Origin: Cyanobium sp. PCC 7001
GTDB lineage: Bacteria; Cyanobacteriota; Cyanobacteriia; PCC-6307; Cyanobiaceae
Direction of reading: 5' to 3'
Length of the DNA stretch: 64,000 nt
Assembly: GCF_000155635.1 (NCBI RefSeq)
Contig: NZ_DS990556.1
Location: forward strand, 447,921 to 511,920
The notes below the pieces were generated by a model. That model saw only the letters and a list, made by a program, of their open reading frames with translations, did no database searches and was not told where the DNA came from. Below are positions 6,445 to 34,815 of this stretch, one piece after another. How positions within the stretch are numbered: position 1 is the stretch's first letter; each line of letters opens with the position of its first letter. The position numbers and the translations under genes were made by a program.

Positions 6445-7041
6445 ATGCCACCGAACACCGCCCTGCTGCTGGTGGATCTGCAGGAGGGCACCTGTGGCAG
6501 GGCCCAGCCCCGCACCAGGCCGGGATTCGACGCCCTGTTCACGCGCCAGACCCTGCCGGCAGCACAGCGCGCCCTCGCCCTGGCCCGCGAGCACGGCCTC
6601 GAGGTGATCCACACGGTGATGGCCAACCTCACCGCCGATGGCCGCGACCGCAGTGCCGACTACAAGCGCTGCGGCATGGGGTTTCCCCCCGGGTCCCTGG
6701 CCAGCCGCGTGATCCCTCCGCTGGCGCCGGTGGGGGATGAACTGGTGCTCCCCAAGAGTTCCTCCTCGCCCTTCAGCTCCACCACCCTCGACTACGTGCT
6801 GCGCAACATCGGGATCGACACGCTGGTGGTGATCGGGCTGCTCACGGACCAGTGCATCGATCACACCGTCAAGGACGGTGCTGACCGTGGCTATCGGATG
6901 GTGTGTCTCACGGATGCCTGCATGGCGGAGAGCCTGGAACAGCACCATCAGGCGCTGCAGTGCTTTCGAGGGTATGGCGCCCAGCTCACGGTGGCGGCCC
7001 TGGCGGGACTGCTCAGAGTGCCAAGGCCCGAGCGGGGTTGA
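6445..7041 (+). CDS. isochorismatase-like cysteine hydrolase
   Basis: A 198-residue member of the isochorismatase-like hydrolases, which include nicotinamidase, biuret hydrolase and N-carbamoylsarcosine amidase. The catalytic triad is present: Asp11 in LLLVDLQ, Lys104 in [10 protein letters not shown] and Cys137 in LTDQCIDHT. The cysteine branch favours amide or carbamoyl hydrolysis over isochorismate cleavage. I chose ATG at 6445 because it begins directly before the first strand; an in-frame ATG at 6418 would leave only 8 bp to the divergent gene. It fits the nitrogen-scavenging theme of the block. The 3' end overlaps the convergent repeat-protein gene by 29 bp. Confidence 0.87.
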
Positions 7042-10000
7042 GCGGATCAGCGGCGATCAGGCTGGGATCGAGGGGATTGGAGTTGCTGCTGTCGGGAGGC
7101 GGCAGCAGGGTTTCCGGCGGCGGCGGCGTGAAGACGATGGGCTCGTTCTCCATGGCGGCTGGGCCGGGAGACTCCGCAGCGATGGTGGCGGGCTCGGGGG
7201 ACTGGTTGGCCTGGGAGGCGTTGCTGAGCGGCTCACCGGTGATCGGATCACTGCTGCCACCGCCGGCGGGACTGGCGGTGCTCAAGCCCTCGCCTGTGGA
7301 GAGAGCCAGGGGGCTGCTTTCGAGGGTGGTGGGTGCAGCATTGGCGCCGAGCGTTTCCCCGGTGATCGGATCGAGGTTGCCGGAGGCAGTGGTGGCTAGT
7401 GGGCTGGTGCTCAGCCACACATCGGCGATCAGGCCGGTGCTGCCCTCGCTGCCGGTGAAGCTGCCCGCCTCCCGGATCAGGTTGCCCTGATCGAGGCGCG
7501 GATCCACGCTGTAGCTCAGGCCGATGCGGCTGATGCCCTCTGTGGCCAGGCCGGTGAGTTCATCGCTCTGGCTCACCCCGTCGCTGTTGCGATCGCGCCA
7601 GGTGCGCAGGCTGCTGAACACGGCATCGTTGGCATCGATGGCGCCATCGCCGTTGCCGCCCTGCGCGATGGCATCGAAGCTGGCCAGGGCCTCGAAGCCA
7701 TGGGCGGCGGTGCCGCCGCCGGGCAGGGGAGTGCTGTTGCCGAACAACTCAGCACCCGAGCTGATCAGGCCGTCGCCATCGCGGTCGAGCGCCAGGAAGG
7801 CCTCGCCGGCACCGATCCAGCCGCTGGCTTCCGGGGTTCCATCGGCATTGAGATCGAAGACCAGGGAGCCGGCTGGATCTAGGGCGGTGGTGGTGATACC
7901 TCCGCCATCGAGATCGAGCACCAGGGGGGAGGTCAGCTGGTTCACGCTCACGTCGGCGGCCACAATCAGCTGGGCCAGGCCGCTGCTGCTGTTGAACACC
8001 GTGTAGGAGCTGCTGCCAGCTCCAGTGAGACCCACTGGTCCGTTGATGGTGCCGGCGGAGGACCAGGTGCCATCCATGAGGTTGAGGGCATCGCCGGCAT
8101 TGCCCGTGACGATGATCTGATGCCGCTGCTCAGTGGCCGGGAGGCTGTACGTCTCACTGGAGAAGCCGAGGCCGGCGGCCATGGTGCTATTGAGCGTGTT
8201 GAAGCCGGCCAGATCCTGGATGGCGGCAACGGAAAGGATGAGCGTGTTGTCACCGCTCCCGGTGAGGTCGATGCGCTCGATCGATTCGAGCCGTGAGGTC
8301 GAAAACGGGGTGGAGGCGCCCTGGTTGGCGATGGCGGCGAGATCCAGCGTTAGGCCGGAGACAGCGAGGCTGATGCTGTCGAAGCCTGTGCCGCCATCGA
8401 TACGGCCCAGCTGTTCGGTGTTGCCGCCAGTGCCGAAGGGCGACTGCAGCGCCGTGATCATCGAACTGGTGACGGTGAAGGTGTCATCACCGGCGCCACC
8501 GAGCAGAACATCGGCGCCATCACCTGTAAGGGTGTCATCATCGGCTCCACCCGCGAGGGTTTCAGCCGCGGCAGTGCCGGGAAGGGTGTCAACGCCGCTG
8601 CCCCCGAGCTGATCGACGGCCGTTTGATAGAAGGCGCCGGAGGTGGAGCCGAAGATCACATAGGAGCGCCCGGAAGCGCTGCCATTTCCGGTGGCGCTGT
8701 AGGCACCCACGAGGAGATCTGCCAGTCCATCCCCATTGACATCTCCCGCCGAGGAGACACTGAATCCACTTTGGTCGTATGCCGTCTCACCATCGATCGC
8801 GAAGCCTCCGATTCCTTCCGCCACTTGGGCGAGGCTGACAGGAGCGGTGCTGGAGGTGCCAAACACCACGTAGGTACGGCCTGTGACAGTCGCGCCATCG
8901 GGCTTGGCATTGTTGGCGCCGATAATGAGGTCGGCTAGGCCATCGCCGTTGACATCACCCGCCGCGCTGACGCTGCGGCCACTGGTGTCGTAGGCGGACT
9001 CACCCGTGATGACGAAACCACCAGTTCCCCCAGCAATCGTGGAGAGTTCAACGAAGGAGGTGTTGTCAGACTTTCCAAACACCACATAGGAGCGCCCGGA
9101 ATTGTTGCCATTGGCATCGTTGCCATAGGAGCCCACTAGGAGATCGGCAAGCCCGTCCCCATTCACGTCGCCGGCTCCGGCGACACTCCAGCCGCTGGCA
9201 TCACTGGAGAAATCAGCTGACTGCTCGCCAAGAATGACAAATCCACCGATTCCAGCCGCAATGTCTGCGAGTTCGACAGGGTTGGTATTGACCGACTTTC
9301 CATAGACCACGTAGGAGCGTCCATTGGAGTAGGGCCCTGCGAAGGGTGCACCGATCAAAAGATCAGCCAGGCCGTCCCCGTTCACATCCCCTGCAGAACT
9401 GACGCTGTAGCCGCTGTTGTTGAAGGACGCCTCGCCGTTGATCACAAAGCCACCGTTGCCGGCGGTGATCTGCGCGAGTTGAACCGGCGAATAGAGGAGT
9501 AGGTCCTGTTGCGCCGGTCCCGATGCATTTCCGGCGGCATCGGTCGCCACAGCCACAACCGTGTTGACTGAGCCCAGCTCCAGCGAACCGTTGACGGGAA
9601 GCGCGGTGGTGGTGTCGATGCTCCAGGTGCCGCCGCTGGCGGTGGTGGTGTAGGTGGCCCCCCCGATGACGAGGGAGATCCGGGCGCCGTCCTCAGCCGT
9701 GCCGCTGATGACGGGGGTGCTGTCGTTGGTGAGTGGCGCGGAGGTGATGGCCACCGACGGAGGGGTGGTGTCGATGGTCAGATCGAGCAGAACGGGGGCC
9801 GAGATGTTGCCCGCCGCGTCGGTGGCGGTGACGGAGATCGCGTTGCTGCCATTGGCATCAAGGGCGAGTGCACCGCTGACGGGAAGCGCGGTGGTGGTGT
9901 CGATGCTCCAGGTGCCGCCGCTGGCGGTGGTGGTGTAGGTGGCCCCCCCGATGACGAGGGAGATCCGGGCGCCGTCCTCAGCCGTGCCGCTGATGACGGG

Positions 10001-10909
10001 GGTGCTGTCGTTGGTGAGTGGCGTGGAGGTGATGGCCACCGACGGAGGGGTGGTGTCGATGGTCAGATCGAGCAGAACGGGGGCCGAGATGTTGCCCGCC
10101 GCGTCGGTGGCGGTGACGGAGATCGCGTTGCTGCCATTGGCATCAAGGGCGAGTGCACCGCTGACGGGAAGCGCGGTGGTGGTGTCGATGCTCCAGGTGC
10201 CGCCGCTGGCGGTGGTGGTGTAGGTGGCCCCCCCGATGACGAGGGAGATCCGGGCGCCGTCCTCAGCCGTGCCGCTGATGACGGGGGTGCTGTCGTTGGT
10301 GAGTGGCGCGGAGGTGATGGCCACCGACGGAGGGGTGGTGTCGATGGTCAGATCGAGCAGAACGGGGGCCGAGATGTTGCCCGCCGCGTCGGTGGCGGTG
10401 ACGGAGATCGCGTTGCTGCCATTGGCATCAAGGGCGAGTGCACCGCTGACGGGAAGCGCGGTGGTGGTGTCGATGCTCCAGGTGCCGCCGCTGGCGGTGG
10501 TGGTGTAGGTGGCCCCCCCGATGACGAGGGAGATCCGGGCGCCGTCCTCAGCCGTGCCGCTGATGACGGGGGTGCTGTCGTTGGTGAGTGGCGCGGAGGT
10601 GATGGCCACCGACGGAGGGGTTATGTCGGTATCCGGGCTGGGAAAAAAGCGCGCCAGATAGGCCAAGAGCGCGCGAAAAAGCAGCAGACGAAAGGTCGCG
10701 GAACTGCCAGGGGTTGCCGAGAACAACGATCGGAAGGTCACCGGAATCCTGGGGCTCGGCTTTTGTCGGAGGGTACTGAGTCCGCTCCAGAAAACCCCAC
10801 TCTCATACCGCTTGCTGCATCGTCCACCCTGTGCTTCAGTCTTCCGCCTTTCTTTCCTGGGACTCTTGTCGAGATCGGCTTCTTGCGCGAAATCGGCCGG
10901 CGCTCTCAC
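7013..10909 (-). CDS. large Ca-binding repeat protein (Ig-like repeats, FG-GAP repeats, RTX-like and calcium-loop region)
   Basis: A protein of up to 1298 residues. From the N-terminus: about 98 residues without recognisable fold; three and a half Ig-like repeats of 95 residues (about 98-470), each with the TDAAGN signature; four FG-GAP / integrin-alpha-like repeats with [11 protein letters not shown] (about 480-745); a short RTX-like part ([25 protein letters not shown] is its core); calcium loops such as [10 protein letters not shown] and [12 protein letters not shown] near 1030-1120; and a proline- and serine-rich tail with two DPITGE motifs. Such proteins are usually exported by type I secretion and act in adhesion or as surface layers; no secretion genes lie nearby. 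Start is uncertain: 10909 is GTG and another GTG lies near 10740. Confidence 0.75.
9590..10620 (-). repeat. tandem 285-bp repeats encoding Ig-like domains
   Basis: The same 285-bp unit recurs with exact spacing: the landmark ccaccgacgg starts at 9751, 10036, 10321 and 10606. The three full intervals appear identical apart from single changes, for example gcgtgg instead of gcgcgg at 10021, which changes Ala to Thr. The copy nearest 9590 diverges in its second half. Such identity at the DNA level points to recent duplication or gene conversion. The match breaks off sharply at 10620. Confidence 0.95.
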
Positions 10910-12024: not shown

Positions 12025-14109
12025 ATGCGACTTCCCTGGGCTGTAGGGCTGCTGCTGCTGCTGGCGGCCCGCTACGTGCACTGGCGGGTGACGAGCACCC
12101 TGGTGCTCGATGATCTCCTGGTGGGCAGCCTGAGCGTGCTCGTGCTGCTGGCCGAGCTCTGGCTCCTGGTCCACAGCTTTCTGCAGCTGCTGTTCAGCCT
12201 CGCCCCCGACCCCGGCATCCGCGCCCGGGTCGAGCGGGCTGCGCTGGTGCTCGAGCAGCGGCTGCAGGCCAGTGATGCCGCCCGGACGGGGTTGCGCGCG
12301 GCACCAGGCGTGTCCTCCCTGCCCGCCTTCTCCCTGCCCAGTGTGGATGTGCTGATCCCCACCTACGGCGAGCCCCTGGAGGTGGTGGAACGCTGCCTTC
12401 GCGGTTGTCTGGCCCTCGACTATCCCCATGTCACGGTGTGGCTGCTGGATGACGCGGCCCGGCCGGAGCTGGCGGCACTGTGCCGGGCTCTGGGCTGCCG
12501 CTACAGCGCCAGGGAGGAGCGGCACCATGCCAAGGCGGGCAATCTCAACCACGTGCTTCCCCAGCTCCGCGGCGATCTGATCGCGGTGTTCGATGCCGAT
12601 GTGGTGCCCCTCGGCAGCTTCCTGCGCCGCAGCGTGGGCCTGTTCGCCGAGGAGCAGGTGGGGCTGGTGCAGACCCCCCAGACCTACATGAACGCCGATC
12701 CGGTGATCCGCAACCTGCGGCTGGAGCGCTGGCTGATGCCGGATGAGGAGAGCTTCTACCGCTGGATCGAACCGGTGCGGCAGGGGGTGGGGGCGGTGGT
12801 CTGCGCCGGCACATCGTTCCTGGTGCGCCGTTCCGCCCTGCAAGCGCTGGGGGGCTTCGACACCGCCACCTCCTCCGAAGACCTCTCCACCGGCATCCGG
12901 CTCACAGCCGCCGGCTGGGAGTGCCTGTTCGTGCCCGAGAAGCTCAGTGCCGGACTCGCCCCCTTCACTGCCGCGGCGATGGCACGGCAGCGCTGCCGCT
13001 GGGCCAGTGGCACCCTGCAGACCCTCCGCAGCGGCGCCAACCCGCTCACCATCTCCGGATTAACGCCCCTGCAGCGCATCGCCTTTCTGGAGGGCATCCT
13101 GCACTGGTTCAACGCGCTGCCGCAGCTGCTGCTGGCGTTGACGCCCCTTGCCATCGGACTGTTCGGCGTGCTGCCGCTGCAGGTGAGCGCCGACGGCCTG
13201 CTGCGCTACGCCCTGCCCTTCTTCGCTGCCCAGCTGCTGCTGGCCCGCTGGTTCAGCGGCCAGGCCCGCACCGGCTTGATGCCCGAGCTGTATCGCTGGA
13301 CCTTCCTGCTGCCGCTGGTGGCCACCATCGCCCGCTGGCTGTGCCGGCGCCCGGCCCACTTCCAGGTGACCCCCAAGGGCCTGGCCCGCGGCAGGGTGGT
13401 GGGGGCCGACCCGCGGCTGTGGGTGCCGTTGCTGGGCCTGCTGGTGGTGCAGCTGGTGGCCCTGGTCAACCTGCTGGGCTCCAGCCCGGATCCCAGCATG
13501 CCGGATCTCGATCCGATCAGTCCGGCCAGCCTCGCGTTGGGCCTGGCGTGGAGTGGACTGAACAGCCTGCTGCTCGCCCTGGCCCTGCGCAGCTGCTGGG
13601 ACCGGCCGCGCGGCAGTGAGCTCCCCTGGTTTTCGCTGCAGGCCTCCGCCCACCTGAACGGACTGCCCTGCCAGCTTGGCGCCATCAGCGAGGGGGGCGT
13701 GGAGCTCAGCGGAGCCCTGCTCAGCCCCGGAGCCACGGCCGTGCTGCGCTGGGGCGCCGCCGGGCCCGATGCCGAACCCGGCGGCTGGCCGGTGCGGGTG
13801 GAAGCTCGGCGCGGCTCCAGCCTCGGCTGTGTGTGGGGCGAGCTCACCGACCTTCAGCGCGAGCGGCTGCAGCAGCTGCTCTACCGCCAGCCGGGGCTCT
13901 GGCCGCAGCGCCGGGCACCGCTGGAACCCGTGGCCTTGATCGTGGTGCTGGCCCGGCTGTTCCAGCCCGTTCCTCCCGATGGCTGGTTCCGGCGCAGCCT
14001 GCTGCCGATCCGGCTGGGACACCGCCCGCTTCGTTCGGGCTCGGTGTCTCCCCAACCGCTCTGGAGGCTGCTGCCGTTCCGGTCTGCGCCTCAGGGCGTC
14101 TCCCCGTAG
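12025..14109 (+). CDS. family 2 glycosyltransferase, cellulose-synthase-like
   Basis: A 694-residue membrane glycosyltransferase. Two hydrophobic segments precede the catalytic domain, which starts at DVLIPTYGEPLEVVERC. The processive-synthase residues are present: DD142-143, the DAD motif at 190-192 (FDADVVPLG), SED at 284-286 and QRCRW at 322-326 (QxxRW). Several membrane segments follow (about 350-555), then a soluble C-terminal region of beta-strand character that sits where BcsA has PilZ, but I see no RxxxR motif. It would build a beta-linked exopolysaccharide at the inner membrane. No BcsB, BcsZ or other partner genes are adjacent, so the product is unknown. Confidence 0.85.
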   Translation: MRLPWAVGLLLLLAARYVHWRVTSTLVLDDLLVGSLSVLVLLAELWLLVHSFLQLLFSLAPDPGIRARVERAALVLEQRLQASDAARTGLRAAPGVSSLPAFSLPSVDVLIPTYGEPLEVVERCLRGCLALDYPHVTVWLLDDAARPELAALCRALGCRYSAREERHHAKAGNLNHVLPQLRGDLIAVFDADVVPLGSFLRRSVGLFAEEQVGLVQTPQTYMNADPVIRNLRLERWLMPDEESFYRWIEPVRQGVGAVVCAGTSFLVRRSALQALGGFDTATSSEDLSTGIRLTAAGWECLFVPEKLSAGLAPFTAAAMARQRCRWASGTLQTLRSGANPLTISGLTPLQRIAFLEGILHWFNALPQLLLALTPLAIGLFGVLPLQVSADGLLRYALPFFAAQLLLARWFSGQARTGLMPELYRWTFLLPLVATIARWLCRRPAHFQVTPKGLARGRVVGADPRLWVPLLGLLVVQLVALVNLLGSSPDPSMPDLDPISPASLALGLAWSGLNSLLLALALRSCWDRPRGSELPWFSLQASAHLNGLPCQLGAISEGGVELSGALLSPGATAVLRWGAAGPDAEPGGWPVRVEARRGSSLGCVWGELTDLQRERLQQLLYRQPGLWPQRRAPLEPVALIVVLARLFQPVPPDGWFRRSLLPIRLGHRPLRSGSVSPQPLWRLLPFRSAPQGVSP

Positions 14110-14160
14110 CTGCCCGACCCGAAGCCGCCTTACCCGTAGCCGCCCTGCCCATAGGTGGCC
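14101..14160. repeat. degenerate 15-bp tandem repeat at a convergent gene junction
   Basis: Four 15-bp units can be laid out from 14101: tccccgtagctgccc, gacccgaagccgcct, tacccgtagccgccc and tgcccataggtggcc. They cover the stop codons of the glycosyltransferase (plus) and of the fused malic enzyme (minus) and encode the glycine-rich end of the latter. Confidence 0.6.
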
Positions 14161-16652
14161 TCCCAGGTGACCTGATCCAGGCAGCGCCGGGCCTCCTCGG
14201 GGGTGGTGGCCAACCGGGCCAGCCCTGCGGCCACCGCTGTCGTGGCCACCGCCTCCGCCACTGCCCGCGACACCGCCCGCACCTGCCGCAGGGATGGCAT
14301 CAGGGGTGCTTCGGGGTCCTGGGCGGCAGGGATGGCTGCGGCCAGGGCCTCCAGGGCGGCATCCACCATCGCTTCACTCACCCGCTCGGCACCCACGGCC
14401 ACGGCGGCGAAGCCGAGGCCGGGATAGAGGAAGCAGTTGTTGCACTGCCCGATCACCCGCTCCCGGCCGTGCCACACCACCGGTGCGAACGGGCTGCCGG
14501 TGGCCACCAGGGCGCGGCCGCCGCTCCAGGCCAGCAGATCGGCCGGGGTGGCCTCCGCCAGGGCGGTGGGGTTGGAGAGGGGAAGGATCAGGGGCCGCTC
14601 GCAGCCGGCGGCCATCGCCTCCACCACGGCCTGGCTGAAGGCCCCGGCCACCGTGGAGGTGCCGATCAGCACGGTGGGCCGCACCTGGCGCACCACCTCC
14701 AGCAGGCCGATCCGCCCGTCAGCGTCGCGCTGGTAGTGCGCTCCTTCCTGGGCAGCTCTGGCCAGGCCCCCCGCCGGGCCGCCGAGTCCGGGCTGGCCTT
14801 CCACGATCAGGCCATGGCGGTCGAGGGCCCACAGCCGCTCCCTGGCCTGGTCGGCGCTCAGACCGGCGGCCTGGAGCAGCCGCAGCAGCCGTTCGGCGAT
14901 GCCGCAACCGGCGGTGCCCGCCCCGAAGATCACGATCCGCTGGTCCGTCAGGCCGGCGTTCAACCCGCGGCAGGCCGCCAGCACCACGGCGGCGGCCACG
15001 CCACTGGTGCCCTGGATGTCGTCGTTGAAGCTGGGGGCCCGGTCGCGGTAGCGGTCGAGCACGCGGCGGGCCTGGGACTTGCCGAAGTCCTCCCAGTGCA
15101 GGAACACGCCGGGGAACACCTGGGTGGCGGCCGCAACGACGGCATCGAGGAAGCGGTCGTAGGCCTCGCCCCGCAACCGCGGCTGGCGCCGACCCGGGTA
15201 GAGCGGATCAGCCAGCAGCTGCGGGTTGTCGGTGCCCACATCCAGCACCACGGCCAGCACGCGGCTGGGATGGAGGCCGCTGCAGAGCGTGTACACCGCC
15301 AGCTTGCCCTGGCAGATGTGGATGCCGCCGACGCCCTGGTCGCCCAGGCCCAGAATCCCCTCGGCGTCGGTGATGAGCAGCAGGTCCACGGGGCCATCGC
15401 TCGCCTGGCGCAGCAGCTCCGGCAGCCGGTCCTGCTGCTCCGGCGTCAGGAAGACACCCAGGTCGGACGGCTGATGGCTGTGGCTGTAGCCCTGGATCAC
15501 CCGGCCCACGGTGGGGGTGTAGACCACGGGCAGGGCGGCCTCGATGTGCTCCTGCAGGAAGGCATGGAAGAGGGTGCGGTTGCTCCGGCGCAGCCGATCG
15601 AGATACACGAACCGCTCCAGCTCTCCTTGCAGAGCCTCAAACCCCCGCCACGCCCGCTCCACCTGCTGCTCCAGGGTCTCCACGGCCGCGGGCAGCAGAG
15701 CGTCGAGCCGCAGCAGCTGGCGTTCCTCGCGGCTGAAGGCCGTGTCGCGGTTGTGTCGGGGGTCGGCGAGCAGGGTGGTGCCCTCGGGCCGCAGGAAGCG
15801 CTCCCCGTCGGGGCTGGACTCCACCCGCACGCGGTAGTGCAGCTGCGAGCCCACGCCCGTGCCCCGGTAGTGGCCGCTCACCGGGGCGGCCAGCCTGTGA
15901 TCGGCCGCCGCCACCAGGGTCACGTGGCCATCGGCCACCGCCAGCCCGAGGCTGGGGTCGTAGGCCCGCCATCCCCCGCCCGGCAGCCACACCTCCGCCC
16001 AGGCGTGCAGCTCGTGCTCGCTCACCTCGGGCGGGTGGTGCATCGAGTAGCCGCTCACGAACCGGGCGGCGAGGCCGAGACTGCGGCAGGCCGCCACGTA
16101 GAGCATGGCCGTGTCGCGGCAGGCGCCCCGGCGCTGGGCCAGGGTTTCCTCCGGCTGCAGCGGTTCGCCGTCGAAGCGGCCCACGTGGTCGAAGGTGTGG
16201 TGGATCCGATCCGCCAGCAGCATCAGCAGATCGGTGGTGCGGTGTCCCGCTTCGGCGGCCAGCTGGGCGGCCCAGGCCGCCACGCTCGCTTCGGCGCCTC
16301 CGAGGAAGGGGGCCAGGGCCTGGGCGGTGGCCGGGGCATAGCGCAGGGGCAGTTCCTGGGCCGAGGGGTCGGTGAGGATCCAGGCGAAGGGGTTGGAGCG
16401 CAGGGTTTCCACCACCGCCGTGGTGTGGATCCACAGCTCCTGCCGCAGTCCGGTGAACCAGATCTCGGTGGTGTCGCTGCCCCCGGGCTCCTCCACGGCC
16501 GTCCAGCCCGCGGCGGGTTCACGCACCGTGAGGCTGTGGCTCAGCAGCCGCTGGGCGCCGTTCTGGCGGGGCGTGAGCCGCAGGGTGTGCGGCTCCAGGA
16601 ACACCGGCTTTTCGTAGTGGTAGTGGAGGGTGTGATGGATCCGGAAGAACAT
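14130..16652 (-). CDS. transglutaminase-like domain fused to NAD(P)-dependent malic enzyme
   Basis: A single 840-residue frame without internal stop. Residues 1-275 are a transglutaminase-like protease/peptidase domain with the triad Cys178 (RRGACRDTAMLY), His216 (EHELHAWAEVW) and Asp232 (WRAYDPSLGL). From about residue 285 to the end is a complete malic enzyme: PxxNRDTAFSREER, LPVVYTPTVGR with Tyr377, HICQGKLAVY with Lys450, HWEDFGKSQA metal acids near 521, SFNDDIQGTSG near 544 and the nucleotide loop GAGTAG near 577. Malic enzyme converts malate to pyruvate with release of CO2. The two halves are normally separate proteins; the join YRVRVESSPDGERFLRPEG keeps frame. ATG at 16652 matches the usual transglutaminase start; GTG at 16670 overlaps the upstream gene. 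Confidence 0.85.
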   Translation of the reverse strand: MFFRIHHTLHYHYEKPVFLEPHTLRLTPRQNGAQRLLSHSLTVREPAAGWTAVEEPGGSDTTEIWFTGLRQELWIHTTAVVETLRSNPFAWILTDPSAQELPLRYAPATAQALAPFLGGAEASVAAWAAQLAAEAGHRTTDLLMLLADRIHHTFDHVGRFDGEPLQPEETLAQRRGACRDTAMLYVAACRSLGLAARFVSGYSMHHPPEVSEHELHAWAEVWLPGGGWRAYDPSLGLAVADGHVTLVAAADHRLAAPVSGHYRGTGVGSQLHYRVRVESSPDGERFLRPEGTTLLADPRHNRDTAFSREERQLLRLDALLPAAVETLEQQVERAWRGFEALQGELERFVYLDRLRRSNRTLFHAFLQEHIEAALPVVYTPTVGRVIQGYSHSHQPSDLGVFLTPEQQDRLPELLRQASDGPVDLLLITDAEGILGLGDQGVGGIHICQGKLAVYTLCSGLHPSRVLAVVLDVGTDNPQLLADPLYPGRRQPRLRGEAYDRFLDAVVAAATQVFPGVFLHWEDFGKSQARRVLDRYRDRAPSFNDDIQGTSGVAAAVVLAACRGLNAGLTDQRIVIFGAGTAGCGIAERLLRLLQAAGLSADQARERLWALDRHGLIVEGQPGLGGPAGGLARAAQEGAHYQRDADGRIGLLEVVRQVRPTVLIGTSTVAGAFSQAVVEAMAAGCERPLILPLSNPTALAEATPADLLAWSGGRALVATGSPFAPVVWHGRERVIGQCNNCFLYPGLGFAAVAVGAERVSEAMVDAALEALAAAIPAAQDPEAPLMPSLRQVRAVSRAVAEAVATTAVAAGLARLATTPEEARRCLDQVTWEATYGQGGYG

Positions 16653-16662
16653 CGGGTCTGGC

Positions 16663-17115
16663 TCAGGCACCCGGACCGGATCCGCCCGGCCTGTCGTGAC
16701 CGTCGTAGCCGCCGAGGGAACGGAACATCAAACCACCACCCGAGGCCATCAGCACCACCATGGTGAGCAGGCTCCAGAGGCTGGTCTCCCGGAAGCTGAA
16801 GAACAGGCTCTGCAGCACGCCGGCGGCCACGGCCGCAAGGGAGGCCCAGATCAGGAACCAGCCCGCCTTTTGCCAACGGCCGGCGAAGAGCAGCACCACC
16901 CCCACCGCCAGCGGCACCATCAGCAGCCCGAACCCGTCGCCGACGCCCCGCGCCAGGGTGCCCGAGAAGAAGGAGCCGTAACCGCCGCCGCGGCCGATGC
17001 CGAAGCGCAGGGCGGATCCCACCATCACCTGGTTGCTGAACAGGAAGATGCCCGCGCCGAAGAGGCTGCCGCCCACCAGGAACAGCAGGAAATCCTGAAC
17101 GGGATGGCGCTGCAT
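16663..17115 (-). CDS. small membrane protein of unknown function
   Basis: A 150-residue protein with four hydrophobic segments: FLLFLVGGSLFGAGIFLFSNQ, a central pair around GFGLLMVPLAVGVVLLFAG and FLIWASLAAVAAGVLQSLFF, and LLTMVVLMASGGGLMF. A glycine-rich loop GRGGGYGSFF separates the first two. I do not recognise a family. ATG at 17115. The gene ends 10 bp before the ATG of the transglutaminase-malic enzyme gene and is probably co-transcribed with it. Confidence 0.7.
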   Translation of the reverse strand: MQRHPVQDFLLFLVGGSLFGAGIFLFSNQVMVGSALRFGIGRGGGYGSFFSGTLARGVGDGFGLLMVPLAVGVVLLFAGRWQKAGWFLIWASLAAVAAGVLQSLFFSFRETSLWSLLTMVVLMASGGGLMFRSLGGYDGHDRPGGSGPGA

Positions 17116-17157: not shown

Positions 17158-17751
17158 CTAGGCCCGAGGTCCGGGTTGAAGGGCGATGTGGCAGCGCAGC
17201 ACGGCGAGGGCATCATCCGGCAGGCCCAGAAAGGCATCCAGCACGGCATCGCCGCTGGCCGGAACCCGGGCCACCCCCACGAGCAGGGCCTGGCCATCCG
17301 CCCCGAGCGGTGCGCCCTGCCCCCGATGCCGTTCGCCCCTCACCTCCCCGGTGCTGAGCAGAGTGTTCACCTGCAGGGCAGGGGGGCGGTAGAGGCCGGC
17401 CAGGCTGCAGTGAAAGCGGGCCCTGAAGTGGAGGTCCACGGCTCCTGAGGCCGGATCGAGCTGGCCGTCCAGTTCCAGGGGTTCGATGCCGATGCGCACC
17501 CCGGGGGGGATCGGTACGCCCAGGATCCGCGTGGTGCGCCAGCTGAGATCGGGAATCCTCAGCAGGGCCGGATCGAAGTGGAGCGGCCACGGGCCTGCCG
17601 CCGGAACGGCAGCCGGTGGCGCCAGGGCGATCCCCCCCCCACCGCGGGCGTCGTAGCGGAAGCGGGGGTAGCGGCCGATCGCCAGGCCGCAGTCATCGAG
17701 GGTGGTGAGCCGCACACTGCTGCTGCTGGCTGGGGAGGATGCATCGGCCAT
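17158..17751 (-). CDS. conserved cyanobacterial protein of unknown function
   Basis: A 197-residue soluble-looking protein with mainly beta-strand pattern: LTTLDDCGLAIGRYPRFRYDARGGGG near the start, IGIEPLELDGQLDPASGAVDLHFRARF in the middle and DAFLGLPDDALAVLRCHIAL at the end. I recall similar proteins in cyanobacterial genomes but know no function. It starts 13 bp after the stop of the PPC-glutaredoxin gene, so the two are likely one transcription unit. ATG at 17751 is preceded by no other good start. Confidence 0.72.
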   Translation of the reverse strand: MADASSPASSSSVRLTTLDDCGLAIGRYPRFRYDARGGGGIALAPPAAVPAAGPWPLHFDPALLRIPDLSWRTTRILGVPIPPGVRIGIEPLELDGQLDPASGAVDLHFRARFHCSLAGLYRPPALQVNTLLSTGEVRGERHRGQGAPLGADGQALLVGVARVPASGDAVLDAFLGLPDDALAVLRCHIALQPGPRA

Positions 17752-17764
17752 GGCGGTGCGGGGC

Positions 17765-18397
17765 TCAGAAGCCCCGCAGGTGCTCCAGCTGGCCCTGGGC
17801 GTGCAACTCCGCCAGGGCGTCATAGCCGCCGATGAAGGCCCCATCGATGAACACCTGGGGCACGCTGCCGGGCTGACCGGGCTCGGTGACCCGGTGGGGA
17901 ATGCTGAGGGTGCGCAGCATCCGCAGGGCCCGGGCCGAGAAGGGGCAGCCCGGCAGCACCGCGATCTCCACCCGTGGCTCCTGGGGCTGCACGGGCTGCG
18001 GTGGCATCGGCGCAGCGGCCATGGCGGGGCGAGCGGTGGCGCCGGCCTCGGGACCCAGCTGGATCGGCTCGGGGTCGAACAGCCCCACCAGCAGGTCGGC
18101 ACCCTTGAGCACCAGGGTGCCCGGCTCGAGATGGCCGCCCCACACCTGGCAGGCATCGTCCGAGAAGCTCAGGTGCAGGTGCACCCCCCCGGCGGCGATG
18201 GTGCCCTGCAGCGTGATGATCTCCAGCTCCCCGGCCAGGAGGGTGGGGCCAGCCTTGCCGGGACATTGAAAGGCCGCCTGGGAGAGGTTGCCCACCACGC
18301 TGAGCACGAAGCCCGAGCCCCCTTCCTGGGCCGCCACCTGCTCGAGTGCCTGGCGCACATCGGTGCCGGGTTCGAGGTGGAGGGCCAGGAAACGCAT
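17765..18397 (-). CDS. PPC/DUF296 domain fused to a monothiol glutaredoxin domain
   Basis: A 210-residue two-domain protein. Residues 1-125 form a PPC (DUF296) domain, recognisable from FLALHLEPGTDVRQALEQV, GFVLSVVGNLSQA, LEIITLQGTIA, HLHLSFSDDACQVWGGHL and the closing VLKGADLLVGLF. After a proline-rich linker comes a glutaredoxin-like domain with the single-cysteine motif GCPFSARALRML, the cis-proline in VPQVFIDG and IGGYDALAELHAQGQL. PPC domains in bacteria have no settled role. Joining one to a thiol-redox module suggests redox sensing or thiol transfer, which is inference. ATG at 18397. Confidence 0.82.
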   Translation of the reverse strand: MRFLALHLEPGTDVRQALEQVAAQEGGSGFVLSVVGNLSQAAFQCPGKAGPTLLAGELEIITLQGTIAAGGVHLHLSFSDDACQVWGGHLEPGTLVLKGADLLVGLFDPEPIQLGPEAGATARPAMAAAPMPPQPVQPQEPRVEIAVLPGCPFSARALRMLRTLSIPHRVTEPGQPGSVPQVFIDGAFIGGYDALAELHAQGQLEHLRGF

Positions 18398-18457
18398 CGG
18401 CAGAGTGCAGGGAGTGGCTGTACAGCAGCGCAAACCTATCGCCCTCCCCTGCGAGCC

Positions 18458-18796: not shown

Positions 18797-19792
18797 TCAG
18801 CATGCCGAACCGGTCAGGTTGATGCGGTGCAGCACGGCCTCGAGGGCATCCGCGGCCAGCTCGGCGGCAAAGCGCTGGGGATGGTGAGCGCTGCAGCAGC
18901 TGGGGAACGGTTGCAGCACCGTGGAGGGCCGCGGATGGCAGAACTGCACAACGCTGAGGCGCCCGCCGGTTTCACCGGGCTCAGCCACCACGCGGTGCCA
19001 GCCGCTGGGGATCAGCCCGTTGCTGAGCCGCTCCAGCATCAGGCCACTGTTGAGGATCACATGTCCATCGGGGGGAGTGGCCTGCACCCAGCGCTCCCCC
19101 ACCAGCACCTCGAGTCCGGGGGCCGTGGCCCTGGGCAGGGCCGTGATCAGATTGATGTCGGCGTGGGCCGCCGCCCACACATGGCCCTCCGCCGGTGCCT
19201 GGTGGATCGGCGGGTAGTGCACCGCGCGGGTGAGCGTGGGCGCCTCCTCCACCATGGCGTCGAAGAGGGCCTCATGAACGCCGAGCCCCACGGCGATCAC
19301 CCGCAGAAACCGTCGCTGCAGATCGGCGATGGCCCGGTGGAAGGCGCCGAGCACGGCGCTGATCCCCGGCACGGCCTCCTCCGGCAGCAGCTGCTGCGGG
19401 TAGAGCACGGGAAAGCGGCGGCGCAGCGGGTGGCCCGCGGGGAGGGGCTCGGCCCAGTTGAGCATCTCCTTCCAGTCGGCCAGGCTGGCGCCGGCGGCGG
19501 TTTCCACCAGATGGCCCGTGTAGCCCGTCTGGCCGCAGGCCCCGTCCGCCACGAAGGCCTGTTTGCGCGTCTCCGGCAGGCGGAAGAACTGCTCCAGCAG
19601 GCCATAGGCGTCATCCAGAAGCGCGGAAGACAGGTCGTGGCTGGTGGTGACGAAACCGGTGGCCAGGCTGCGCTTCACCCCATCCACCACGGCGGCGCGG
19701 GCGGCGCTGTCGCCCCGCTCGAACCGCAGCAGATCCACATCGAGCACTGCGGCGTCGTCGTCGGGACCGGTGAACCCCTGGGCCAGGGTCAT
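18797..19792 (-). CDS. isopenicillin-N-synthase-like 2-oxoglutarate/Fe(II) oxygenase
   Basis: A 331-residue member of the IPNS-like oxygenases. The iron ligands are His210 and Asp212 (AAHADINLIT) and His266 (SGWHRVV); the co-substrate-binding pair is Arg278 and Ser280 (GRLSVVQF). The N-terminal half has the usual DIOX_N-like pattern. It would hydroxylate or oxidise an unknown small molecule using oxygen and 2-oxoglutarate. ATG at 19792 overlaps the stop of the DUF427 gene (ATGA), so both are made together. Confidence 0.85.
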   Translation of the reverse strand: MTLAQGFTGPDDDAAVLDVDLLRFERGDSAARAAVVDGVKRSLATGFVTTSHDLSSALLDDAYGLLEQFFRLPETRKQAFVADGACGQTGYTGHLVETAAGASLADWKEMLNWAEPLPAGHPLRRRFPVLYPQQLLPEEAVPGISAVLGAFHRAIADLQRRFLRVIAVGLGVHEALFDAMVEEAPTLTRAVHYPPIHQAPAEGHVWAAAHADINLITALPRATAPGLEVLVGERWVQATPPDGHVILNSGLMLERLSNGLIPSGWHRVVAEPGETGGRLSVVQFCHPRPSTVLQPFPSCCSAHHPQRFAAELAADALEAVLHRINLTGSAC

Positions 19793-20067
19793 TGCACCGT
19801 CACACCCTTCCAGAACGCCACCCGGCCGCGGATCTGGCGGGCGGCGTCCTTGGGCTCGGGATAGAACCAGGCGGCGTTGGGATTCACCGCGCCGTCCACC
19901 ACCACGTCGTAGTAGTGGGCCTCGCCTTTCCAGCCGCAGACACTGCGGTGCTCGGAGGGCTGCACATGGGCCGGATCCAGCGCCTCCGCAGGGAAGTAGG
20001 CATTGCCCTCCACCATCACGATGTCGTCGCTGCTGGCGATCACCGCCCCCTTCCAGCTCGCTTGCAT
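19789..20067 (-). CDS. DUF427 family protein
   Basis: A 92-residue protein with the typical DUF427 features: a short N-terminal strand, IVMVEGNAYFPAEAL, the CGWKGEAHYYDVVVDG core and the closing WFYPEPKDAARQIRGRVAFWKGV. Function is unknown in bacteria. ATG at 20067 is the first gene of the minus-strand string that runs down to about 14130; the 141-bp gap to the divergent gene at 20209 should hold its promoter. Confidence 0.88.
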   Translation of the reverse strand: MQASWKGAVIASSDDIVMVEGNAYFPAEALDPAHVQPSEHRSVCGWKGEAHYYDVVVDGAVNPNAAWFYPEPKDAARQIRGRVAFWKGVTVQ

Positions 20068-30230: not shown

Positions 30231-30665
30231 CACGCCTCCCAGGGCGATCAGGGCCACCCCGAGCCAGCTGCGCCAGCTCAGTTGCTCGCCCAGCACGATC
30301 ACGCCCAGCAGGGCCACCAGCACCACGCTCAGCTTGTCGATCGGCGCCACCCGGGCCACCGGCCCCAGCTGCAGGGCACGGAAGTAGCAGAGCCAGGAGG
30401 CGGTCGTGGCCAGCCCCGACAGGGCCAGGGCCAGCAGGCTGGCCCGCGGCAGGCTCCCCAGCTCCAGGCCGTGGAGCTGACCGCTGGCCGCCAGCACCAC
30501 CGCCAGGCACAGCACCACCACCACGGTGCGCAGGAAGGTGGCCACATCGGGCTGCAGCCCCTGCAGCCCCAGCTTGGCGAACAGGGAGGTGAGGGCAGCG
30601 CTCACGGCCGCAAGGCTGGCCCAGAACTGCCAGCTCTGCAGCAGCCCGGAGGCCCCCGGGCTCAT
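30213..30665 (-). CDS. single-domain EamA-family membrane protein
   Basis: A 150-residue protein of five membrane segments, matching one EamA repeat (half of a usual drug/metabolite transporter). [23 protein letters not shown] at the start, [42 protein letters not shown] and the closing [14 protein letters not shown] are characteristic. Such half-size proteins are thought to dimerise. ATG at 30665 overlaps the leuS stop (ATGA). Confidence 0.88.
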
Positions 30666-33304
30666 GGCACCAGGTTCACGAGCTTGCCCGGCACCACGAT
30701 CACCCGGCTGGGAGGCTTGCCCTCGAGCCACTTGGCGGCGATGTCGCTGGCCAGGGCGATGGCCTCGAGCGCGGCCTTGTCGGCATCGGCCGGCACCTCC
30801 AGGGAGCCCCGCACCTTGCCCTTCACCTGGATCACCAGCGGGATGGTGTCGCGCACCAGCGCTTCCGGATCCAGGCTCGGCCAGCTCTCACGATGCACGC
30901 TCCCGGGGGAGGTTCCGTCGCCGGCCGCCTGGCCATGGAGCCTGGCCCAGAGCTCTTCGGCCAGGTGGGGGGCAAAGGGAGCGAGCAGCAGCACCAGGGT
31001 GCGCAGCGCTTCGCGGGCCACCGGATCGCGGCTTGCCTCCAGGTGGTCAGCCATGGCGTTGCTGAGCTTCATCAGTTCCGACACCGCGGTGTTGAACTGG
31101 AAGTCGCCGTCCAGGTCTTCGCTCACGGCGGCGATGGCGGTGTGCACCGCACGGCGCAGCTCCCGCTCGGCCGGGATCAGATCGGCAGTGGGGAGATTCG
31201 CAGAATCCGTGCCGTCCTGCTCCGCAGGGCCCAGCATGAGACCACGGGCCAGGGCCCCATCCACCAGCCGCCAGAGGCGCTGGAGGAAGCGGAACTGCCC
31301 TTCCACATCGGCGTCGTCCCACTCCAGATCCTTTTCCGGTGGGGCCTTGAACAGAATGAACATCCGGGCCGTGTCGGCGCCATAGCGATCGATCACCACG
31401 GCGGGATCGACGCCGTTGTGCTTCGATTTGGACATCTTCTCGTAGAAGGTGTCGAGCACCTCGCCGCTGATCGGATCGCGGGGATCCGTGGGATCGGCCA
31501 CATCCGCCGGCGCCACATACTTGCCGCTCGCGGGATTCCTGTAGGTGATGCCCTGCACCATCCCCTGGGTGAGCAGGCGGGTGAAGGGTTCGCCGAAACC
31601 CAGCAGGCCCCGGTCGCGCAGCACCTTGGTGAAGAAGCGGGCGTAGAGCAGGTGGAGGATGGCGTGCTCGATGCCGCCCACGTACTGATCCACCGGCAGC
31701 CAGCGGTCCACCGCCTCGCGGCTGAACGGCAGCGTGGTGTTGTGGGGGTCGCTGTAGCGCAGGAAGTACCAGCTGGAGCACATGAAGGTGTCCATGGTGT
31801 CGGTCTCCCTGCGGGCCGGCTGGCCGCAGCAGGGACACGGCACCTGCCACCAGCTCTCCAGCTGGGCCAGGGGTGAGCCGCCCTTGCCGCTGAAGGGCAC
31901 GTTGCGCGGCAGTTCCACCGGCAGCTGATCGGCCGGCACCGGCACAACGCCACAGCTCTGACAGTGGATCACCGGGATGGGGCAACCCCAGTAGCGCTGG
32001 CGGGAGATGAGCCAGTCGCGCAGGCGGAACTGCACCTTGGCTTCGCCCCAGCCCTGCTCCTCGGCGGTCCGGGTGATGGCCTGTTTGGCCTCGGCGCTGG
32101 TGAGTCCGTCGAACGGGCCGGAGTGAATGAGAATGCCGGGATCGGTCCAGGCTCCGCCCTCATAGGCGTGCTCGTCGCTGCCGGCCGGAATGATCACCTG
32201 CCGCACCGGCAGTTCGTACTGGCGGGCGAAGACGAAGTCCCGCTGGTCGTGGGCCGGAACCCCCATCACGGCCCCGGTGCCGTAGTCGGCCAGCACGTAG
32301 TCAGCGATCCACAGGGGAATCAGCTCGCCGTTGGCGGGGTTGCGCACCCGTGCTCCGATCGGCACGCCCCGTTTGGGTTTGTCGTCTGCGGTGCGCTCCT
32401 GTTCACTCTGACGGCTCACGAGAGCGGAGAACGCCTCCACCTGCAGCTTGTGCTCGGAGCTGGTGAGCGTCGCCACCAGGGGGTGGTCCGGAGCCAGCAC
32501 CAGGTAGCTGGCTCCGAACAGGGTGTCGGGCCGGGTGGTGAACACGGTGATCCGCTCGCCGGTCTCCTGGCCCCGGTCGTTCACCACGGAGAAGCTGAGT
32601 TCGGCGCCGCTGCTGCGCCCGATCCAGTTGGCCTGCATGGTGCGCACCCGCTCCGGCCAGCCCTCCAGCTGCGGCAGGTCGTCCAGCAGCTGGTCGGCGT
32701 AGGCGGTGATCTTCAGGAACCACTGGCGCAGCTGGCGCTTCTCCACCAGGGCGCCGGAGCGCCAGGAGCGGCCTTCACTGTCCACCTGTTCGTTGGCCAG
32801 CACGGTCTGGTCCACCGGATCCCAGTTCACGGTGGCGTCCTTCTGATACGCCAGGCCGGCCTCGAGGAACTGCAGGAACAGCCACTGGGTCCAGCGGTAA
32901 TAGTCGGCGTGGCAGGTGGCCACCTCCCGGTCCCAGTCGATCGAGAGGCCGAGACGCTGCAGCTGCTGCCGCATGGCGGCGATGTTGCGATCGGTCCAGT
33001 CGCCCGGGTCCACGCCCCTCTCGATCGCTGCGTTCTCTGCCGGCAGCCCGAAGGCGTCCCACCCCATCGGATGGAGCACCGGGCGGCCACGCATTCTCTG
33101 GACACGGGCGATCACATCGGTGATCACGTAGTTGCGCACATGGCCCATGTGCAGGTTCCCCGAGGGATAGGGGAACATCGAGAGGGCCACGAAGGGCTCC
33201 CCTGGGCCCGAGGCATCGGGCGTGCGGTGCAGCTGCTCCCGATCCCAGTGCTCCTGCCAGCGCTCCTCGATCGCCTGCGGTTGGTAGCGGCTGCTCTCGC
33301 TCAC
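30662..33304 (-). CDS. leuS: leucyl-tRNA synthetase
   Basis: An 880-residue class I synthetase that charges tRNA-Leu. The HIGH-type motif is in [14 protein letters not shown] near residue 49, the editing domain lies in the middle ([20 protein letters not shown]), and [12 protein letters not shown] near residue 625 is the KMSKS loop. The length fits bacterial LeuRS. The start codon is GTG at 33304. The EamA gene overlaps its stop. Confidence 0.96.
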
Positions 33305-33346
33305 GTCAGGCCTGGAACCCAGCAGCCGATGGTGCCACAGGCCACC

Positions 33347-33598
33347 TCAGCCCAGGGTGCGGATCATGGCCACGTGCTCCCGGTTGATCAGGGTGAGCGG
33401 CCGACCGTCGGCCAGATCCTCGCTCTGGTGCAGTCCGTAGCAGTACACGTCCTGCCAGCGGATCACCCCCTCGACTTCCGTGCCTCCCGCGATGAGGAGG
33501 GCCACCGGCTGCTTGCGCCTGATCAGCTCCTGCACGTGGCGCACGCTCGGTTGGGCGGTGTCGAGAGCGGCGGGCCTTCGCTCGAGAAAGCTCTGCAT
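33347..33598 (-). CDS. hfq: Hfq-like RNA-associated protein (cyanobacterial type)
   Basis: An 83-residue Sm-like protein. The Sm core is recognisable in VRHVQELIRRKQPVALLIAGGTEVEGVIRWQDVYCYGL and in PLTLINREHVAMIRTLG, while the Sm2 YKHA motif of enteric Hfq is absent, as in other cyanobacteria. There Hfq does not bind RNA like the enteric form and is tied to type IV pilus function. Divergent pairing with dapF, only 32 bp apart, is the usual cyanobacterial arrangement and supports the call. Confidence 0.88.
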   Translation of the reverse strand: MQSFLERRPAALDTAQPSVRHVQELIRRKQPVALLIAGGTEVEGVIRWQDVYCYGLHQSEDLADGRPLTLINREHVAMIRTLG

Positions 33599-33630
33599 AG
33601 GATCGGGAGCAGGCTGAACGTCGCCCCATC

Positions 33631-34815
33631 GTGCTCCAGTACTGCAAGTATCAGGGTCTGGGAAATGATTTCCTGATGGTCGACGGTCGCGGCGCCACCG
33701 ACGCCGCCACCGACGTCGCCACTGAGGCCGCCACCGAGACCCCCACCGACGACACCTGCCTCGGCCTCACCCCTGAGCGGATCCGCCGCCTCTGCGACCG
33801 CCGTTTCGGCATCGGCGCCGATGGCCTGATCGTGGCTGCACCGCCCCGGGAGGGTGGCGAGCTGCGCATGCGCATCTTCAATGCCGACGGCAGTGAGCCG
33901 GAGATGTGCGGCAATGGCATCCGTTGCCTGGCCCGTTTCCTGGCCGACAGCGATGGCGACCTGCCCGGCCGCCGCTGGCAGGTCGAGACCCTGGCCGGAC
34001 GCATCGTGCCCGAGCTCCAGCCCGATGGCAGCGTGCGGGTGGACATGGGTCAGCCGTTTCTGGCTCCGGAGACGGTGCCCACCACCCTGGAGATCGGCGA
34101 CGCGGGCATCCCCCAGGGCAGCCTCGAGGCCGCCGGCGAAAGCTTCCAGGTGGGAGCCGCAGGCATGGGCAACCCCCACGTGGTGATTCCCGTGCCGGAT
34201 CTGGAGGCGGTGGACCTGGAGCGCTTCGGTGCCGCGCTGGAGGTCCATCCCGCCTTCCCCGCCCGCACCAATGTGCATTTCGTGCAGGTGCTCACCCCCG
34301 CCCATCTGGTGATGCGGGTGTGGGAGCGGGGTGCGGGGCCGACCCTGGCCTGCGGCACCGGAGCCTGCGCCACCCTGGTGGTGTGCCACGCGCTGGGGCT
34401 GGCGGAACGCTCAGCCCGGCTCGATCTGCCCGGTGGACCGCTGCAGATCAGCTGGGACCCTGCCGATGACCATGTGTGGATGACGGGTCCGGCCGAGGCC
34501 GTGTTCGATGCCGTGATCGCACCCTCCCTGTGGGATCCGGAGGGCGTGGACGACCTGGATGGGCAGCCGCCGAGCCCCGAGGCCACGTCCCCGGAGCCTG
34601 AGCCAGCCGTCGTGGAGACGGTGAGCGTGGACTGCGCCACGGTGTGCGTTCAGGGCTGCATCCGGCCCGACGACTGCCCCTCAGCAGCGGCACGGGCCCG
34701 GGTGGAGGCGCTGCTCAGCTCCAGCTCCCTCGACGACCTGGTGAATCTGGCCGCCAACTCCCTGGAGAACCGCATCCGCGCCCGCGCCGAGCGCCCCTCC
34801 AGTTCCGGCGGCTGA
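33631..34815 (+). CDS. dapF: diaminopimelate epimerase with a C-terminal extension
   Basis: A 394-residue protein, about 110 longer than usual DapF, which interconverts LL- and meso-diaminopimelate for lysine and peptidoglycan. The two catalytic cysteines are Cys93 (EPEMCGNGIRC) and Cys241 (LACGTGACATL). Two oddities stand out. An Ala/Thr/Asp-rich insert (TDAATDVATEAATETPTDD) sits at residues 23-41. After the normal end near residue 297 come about 97 more residues, with a proline-rich linker and a part holding four cysteines (VDCATVCVQGCIRPDDC), then a helical tail. Start is GTG at 33631. The cysteine desulfurase gene follows by 8 bp. Confidence 0.92.
   Translation: MLQYCKYQGLGNDFLMVDGRGATDAATDVATEAATETPTDDTCLGLTPERIRRLCDRRFGIGADGLIVAAPPREGGELRMRIFNADGSEPEMCGNGIRCLARFLADSDGDLPGRRWQVETLAGRIVPELQPDGSVRVDMGQPFLAPETVPTTLEIGDAGIPQGSLEAAGESFQVGAAGMGNPHVVIPVPDLEAVDLERFGAALEVHPAFPARTNVHFVQVLTPAHLVMRVWERGAGPTLACGTGACATLVVCHALGLAERSARLDLPGGPLQISWDPADDHVWMTGPAEAVFDAVIAPSLWDPEGVDDLDGQPPSPEATSPEPEPAVVETVSVDCATVCVQGCIRPDDCPSAAARARVEALLSSSSLDDLVNLAANSLENRIRARAERPSSSGG

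Follow-up and report, generated by a model that had tools for sequence, protein, structure and literature searches.

A transglutaminase-like protein and a malic enzyme joined in one conserved gene of Cyanobium sp. PCC 7001 and two close relatives

The window, i.e. the whole stretch of 64,000 nucleotides of Cyanobium sp. PCC 7001 DNA that was analysed, carries a single uninterrupted frame joining a transglutaminase-like (TG) domain to a malic enzyme (ME). The original prediction, made from the letters alone, had described this 840-residue frame with correct coordinates; its strand, absent from that description, is minus. The fused gene, its parts and its neighbours are as follows (positions are those of the window).

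12025-14109 (+): gene of a family 2 / cellulose-synthase-like glycosyltransferase, which converges on the fusion in all three fused genomes
14130-16652 (-): fused TG-ME gene, 840 residues from an ATG; start aligned with standalone TG proteins
14133-15797 (-): ME half, residues about 286-840 (NF010052 and alignment to 6ags)
14235-15017 (-): Malic_M, NAD binding (PF03949; Pfam E 2.7e-85)
15045-15584 (-): malic (PF00390; Pfam E 2e-56)
15780-15815 (-): junction, where the last TG strand runs directly into the ME start (alignment, three species)
15798-16652 (-): TG half, residues about 1-285 (Pfam and alignment)
15954-16268 (-): Transglut_core (PF01841; Pfam E 4.3e-20, 72.4 bits against a cut-off of 23)
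15957-15959 (-): codon of catalytic Asp232, invariant in 24 of 24 aligned rows
16005-16007 (-): codon of catalytic His216, invariant in the same 24 rows
16119-16121 (-): codon of catalytic Cys178, likewise invariant in all 24
16407-16646 (-): Bact_transglu_N (PF08379; Pfam E 2.4e-16, 60.7 bits against a cut-off of 27)
17185-17715 (-): c4, without a Pfam match; split genomes also have it downstream of c2
17765-18433 (-): c2, PCC domain and glutaredoxin (Pfam); a neighbour of the fusion
19792-20067 (-): DUF427 gene, found directly after ME in 4 of 6 unfused same-genus ME loci
30662-33304 (-): leuS, found directly before ME in 5 of 6 unfused same-genus ME loci; no ME adjoins it in the window

An alternative GTG start at 16670 would extend the frame to 14130-16670 and the protein to 846 residues, i.e. 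by six. We favour the ATG at 16652, since the standalone TG proteins of relatives align from the same residue and the fused frame of G006, one of the two other fused genomes, has no earlier start. The plus strand is likewise open across 14130-16652, as is common elsewhere in the window (70% G+C). Pfam places Bact_transglu_N, Transglut_core, malic and Malic_M in this order along the protein, each above its cut-off. Judged from the sequences compared, this is a real, conserved gene fusion in which two complete enzymes are joined.

As both PF08379 and PF01841 score above their curated cut-offs, the TG half is, by domain content, a bacterial transglutaminase-like protein. It matches its orthologues in the family over the whole length, mostly at 59-68% identity, and shares the invariant Cys, His and Asp of standalone cyanobacterial TG proteins (PF08379 and PF01841), which, unlike the fusion, are single proteins of roughly 300 residues. 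The triad C178, H216 and D232 lies exactly at the predicted positions. Alignment with standalone relatives indicates that the half is complete to its final strand (YRVRVESS) and that just the weakly conserved C-terminal tail is missing, its place being taken by ME. The most plausible guess for the TG half is a peptide-directed thiol amidohydrolase or acyltransferase.

One paper (PMC3597751) describes proteins of this TG family as occurring together with Alpha-E and ATP-grasp genes in what is predicted to be a peptide system. The fused TG belongs to the same family as the TG of the Alpha-E / circularly permuted ATP-grasp / transglutaminase peptide-modification system, and its orthologue in G078 (L178) stands in such a row: between 7822 and 14758 (-), all on one strand, lie CP_ATPgrasp, Alpha-E, a TG paralogue, DUF2126 (putative amidoligase), an unknown ORF and then the orthologue of the fused TG. 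Similarly, the best TG match in G053, a member of another family, comes after CP_ATPgrasp and Alpha-E. In contrast to these rows, the fused TG is not beside such genes. The single Alpha-E match in the window's genome (G000:C1:1917131-1918060) is located about 1.45 Mb from the fusion and is adjoined by a TG paralogue (G000:C1:1918099, 33%), not by the fused TG. All three fused genomes carry a TG paralogue (33-35% identity), and weaker TG matches occur in G000 (the window's own genome) and G002; the sole copy of this TG orthologue in them is the fusion. No neighbour of the TG orthologue kept across genera was found in most of the other loci examined, and a limited literature search revealed no role for the solo cyanobacterial TG protein.

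The ME half was assigned by NCBIfam to the oxaloacetate-decarboxylating malate dehydrogenase subfamily NF010052, with 680 bits against a cut-off of 326 and over profile positions 16-559 of 564, and so the prediction of a full-length malic enzyme holds. E. coli ME (6ags) aligned with residues 9-553 of the 559-residue ME query (E 2e-143). The claim that all recognisable catalytic residues are present was correct in part. The active-site positions Tyr, Lys, Glu/Asp/Asp and Asn are kept in the window protein, as they are in every one of the 89 aligned rows apart from one gap at one Asn position; we take the roles and numbering of these residues, including the metal-binding Glu/Asp/Asp, to be those of human ME2. 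On the other hand, the active-site Arg of E. coli ME, presumably equivalent to ME2 Arg165, is replaced by Gly in the fusion and in 85 of the 89 rows. The fusion thus resembles the large-type NAD malic enzymes (NF010052; E. coli 6ags) in its profile match and in its near-full alignment to 6ags, and differs from them in this Gly and in sitting behind a TG domain. Chain 6urf, deposited as an NAD-dependent malic enzyme, has Ala at the position; the Arg is therefore not universal in the family, and its absence does not exclude membership. Malic activity of the ME half is accordingly likely but not certain on sequence grounds.

The junction contains neither a linker nor an indel among the three fused species, and the ME half starts about where standalone MEs become alignable (GERFLRPEGTTLLADP versus PVRFTALRGPALLAQP). 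AlphaFold modelled the ME half with confidence from about residue 291 onwards; the TG half scores mostly below 50, which is due to an alignment without TG relatives.

Fused and split forms were sought among relatives in genus (13), family (300) and class (388) genome sets, which overlap. The original prediction had proposed such a search. The same in-frame junction was recovered in two further species: the fusion occurs in 3 of the 13 genus genomes, namely the window's own, G002 (89% identity) and G006 (83% identity), and in 3 of the 300 family genomes, which are the same three. In the class sample the window's own genome was the sole fused one among the matches listed (best first). TG and ME are both present at separate places in six genus genomes (G001, G004, G005, G007, G011 and G012, the ME of the last being interrupted by a contig end), G003 has TG without ME, and in G008, G009 and G010 neither was found beyond paralogues or a short weak match. 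Relatives have either the fused gene or the two genes apart, and neither outcome that the original prediction had named as refuting it was observed, be it two genes parted by a stop codon here in all related strains or a sequencing error where the halves meet. No second Malic_M match was detected in the three fused genomes, where the fusion is the only ME gene found.

When 71 TG and 117 ME ORF matches (1e-15) were compared, ORFs with both halves were restricted to the three fused genomes (6 ORFs, each genome's being counted twice). No adjacent but unfused TG-ME pair was seen among the relatives searched, and no TG match fell on an ME locus across 80 loci (flanks up to 5 kb, some ending at contig ends). 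The closest unfused pair in the family, among the matches listed, is about 30 kb apart on one contig (G265). At E 1e-60, the 300 family genomes comprise 50 with both proteins, 16 with ME only, 7 with TG only and 227 with neither; we gave this co-occurrence no weight, since genome size and descent could produce such counts. Among the long open frames (the others being L192-L194), the one examined as a candidate second fusion outside the genus, of 1040 residues at G180 (ME match 36%), was rejected as it contains a plain 581-residue ME ORF.

The gene order differs between fused and unfused genomes. In G001, G004, G005 and G011 the order is leuS-ME-DUF427-c12-c16-c2-c4 (DUF427 in G005 and c16 in G011 were found by direct search). 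The two remaining unfused loci are the exceptions with respect to DUF427: in G012 leuS adjoins ME and the contig stops within ME, which cuts the locus, and in G007 ME is at a place other than leuS/DUF427. All three fused genomes have DUF427-c2-c4-TG-ME on a single strand, and c12 and c16 have no match at their loci. In the window leuS and dapF lie at 30662-34815, without ME; leuS had no match in the 20-kb stretches of G002 and G006. Comparison of the two arrangements shows that ME moved from between leuS and DUF427, and that TG is now directly upstream of it. The same glycosyltransferase that converges on the fusion is separated from ME by one called ORF in G035, and is near TG in G007.

Several further observations concern these neighbours. 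The c2 gene (17765-18433 (-)) combines PF03479 and a weak PF00462 in one 222-residue ORF, an unusual pair with homologues in six other loci. Between c4 and the fusion, at 16663-17115 (-), there is a 150-residue ORF without a Pfam match; only about 250 bases separate the c4 match from the fusion ATG in G002, so this ORF is not kept in place. A DUF2126 gene is situated about 5 kb from ME in G007 (L147), about 7 kb from TG in G004, G011 and G012 (L150, L154 and L160), and about 14 kb from it in G005.

In phylogenetic trees the fused rows form one clade, both for TG (trees of 57 rows and of 29 rows, the latter with support 100/100) and for ME (89 rows, FastTree, support 100), and a single origin of the fusion is the best reading of these sequence trees. 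The fused ME clusters with three same-genus MEs and the ME of Cyanobium sp. ATX 6A2 (support 98, FastTree only); the ME of G007, of the same genus, is placed elsewhere. The fused TG falls outside the TG clade of the genus and is nearest to G035 and G103, which belong to another genus (64/94, 29-row tree), but the AU test does not reject a tree that keeps it within the genus (p 0.187). Acquisition from outside the genus is therefore one possible origin of the fused TG half.

NG86 dN/dS values among the three fused species are 0.11-0.19 for the TG half, 0.22-0.26 for the ME half and 0.26-0.32 for the 41 junction codons. The values of TG and ME show that both halves are under purifying selection. 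The three fused species are close relatives, and the fusion may have persisted through common descent as much as through any advantage.

Based on these observations, we suggest, with a probability of about two in three, that the gene is a bifunctional fusion which originated once in one branch of the genus and whose halves keep separate activities. The sequence itself shows that ME no longer occupies its place between leuS and DUF427, that TG is placed directly upstream of it with the same orientation, and that both frames have merged without a linker. One polypeptide would then be made from the fused gene. Its C-terminal half probably assembles as a malic-type enzyme, converting malate to pyruvate by oxidative decarboxylation with NAD(P). 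The N-terminal half, a putative Cys-His-Asp thiol amidohydrolase/acyltransferase from the family of the Alpha-E/ATP-grasp system, would ride on the ME assembly, and each half would retain its own substrate.

It may be asked whether the single frame instead yields two proteins, through an internal start close to the junction or cleavage at that point. Such an outcome is unlikely. Cyanobacterial genes often start without a Shine-Dalgarno motif, which counts in favour of it. We compared 80 codons around the boundary in the three fused species. All three share GTG codons close to the junction (258, 267, 275 and 277) and within ME (324 and 331), and the one at 331 is preceded by a ribosome-binding-like GGAG, in G000 only. 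Within the same 80 codons, however, the three species have no ATG in common (G006 has its own at 271 and 292, G002 at 316), and none of the starts at the ME boundary has a ribosome-binding motif. The original prediction had likewise described a junction with no stop and no clear new start apart from GTG. Moreover, conservation of the GTGs at 258-277 has another explanation, as they code for Val in the TG fold, starts at 324 or 331 would remove the beginning of ME, and the first start of standalone ME frames is ATG in 6 of 8 cases and GTG in two.

It is rather improbable, to judge from the comparisons made, that the TG half acts on or controls ME or its assembly, as the original prediction suggested, e.g. 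by trimming it, modifying it or sensing a peptide ligand. A loose precedent is provided by the hybrid-type malic enzymes (MaeB), described in PMC12704298 as ME with a C-terminal PTA domain that is an allosteric modulator and enzymatically inactive; there, as here, ME is permanently fused to an unrelated domain. The keeping of a linker-free fusion in three species also speaks for control. Nevertheless, our fusion carries its extra domain at the N-terminus; this domain is transglutaminase-like and has an intact catalytic triad, unlike the PTA domain as characterised in that paper, and it is attached to an ME of the large PRK13529 type. Pfam gave no PTA match in the fused protein (E 0.001). Furthermore, TG and ME are adjacent in no other relative seen, and 16 of the 66 family genomes with this ME have no TG orthologue at E 1e-60 (several of these genomes are incomplete), hence ME seemingly does not need TG.

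A more far-reaching version of the bifunctional reading is that the single ME of the cell has become permanently tied to a catalytically intact thiol amidohydrolase from the Alpha-E/ATP-grasp family, so that malate decarboxylation and peptide/amide processing would be co-made, co-localised and perhaps co-regulated. We put this forward as a doubtful proposal. If true, it would define a new class of hybrid malic enzymes and give a poorly understood peptide system its first metabolic link.

We think it quite unlikely that the C-terminal half is a malolactic enzyme, which would convert malate to lactate. What the fusion has in common with such enzymes is the Gly at the Arg position of E. coli ME, also carried by two Loigolactobacillus proteins (L105 and L110) that pass the malolactic model NF041582 with scores of 884 and 902. 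The fusion itself reaches only 533 bits on this model against a cut-off of 850 and passes the malic model NF010052, and the Gly is also present in 19 of 21 gammaproteobacterial and other rows, to which the Ala of 6urf may be added.

Finally, an assembly or sequencing artefact joining two genes can be practically dismissed, since the in-frame junction recurs in the assemblies of three species, two of which are single-contig, and neither chance nor a miscalled base would produce that; a sequencing error or a stop codon lost in one strain, which the original prediction had named as possible origins of the frame, is ruled out by the identical junction in G002 and G006.

The original prediction knew of no described protein of this kind, and our limited literature searches, incomplete in coverage, likewise found no earlier report of this domain architecture. 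Another paper (PMC7522525) lists 31 genes as specific to Synechococcus subcluster 5.2, one of them for an NAD-dependent malic enzyme that may or may not be the orthologue of the fused ME. Two complete enzymes of seemingly unrelated pathways have become one protein, which is kept in three species with neither orthologue found separate there. The fusion of two genes has long been read as a hint that their functions are linked, and the present case offers a lead on the role of the solo cyanobacterial TG protein. It may also be of use as a clean example of gene fusion, because sister genomes display both the unfused state and the altered gene order.

Elsewhere in the window, a 1298-residue ORF at 7013-10909 (-) contains a 285-base unit that is repeated in tandem, nearly unchanged, at least three times; the units are visible as nearly equal antisense ORFs at 9654-9938, 9939-10223 and 10224-10508.
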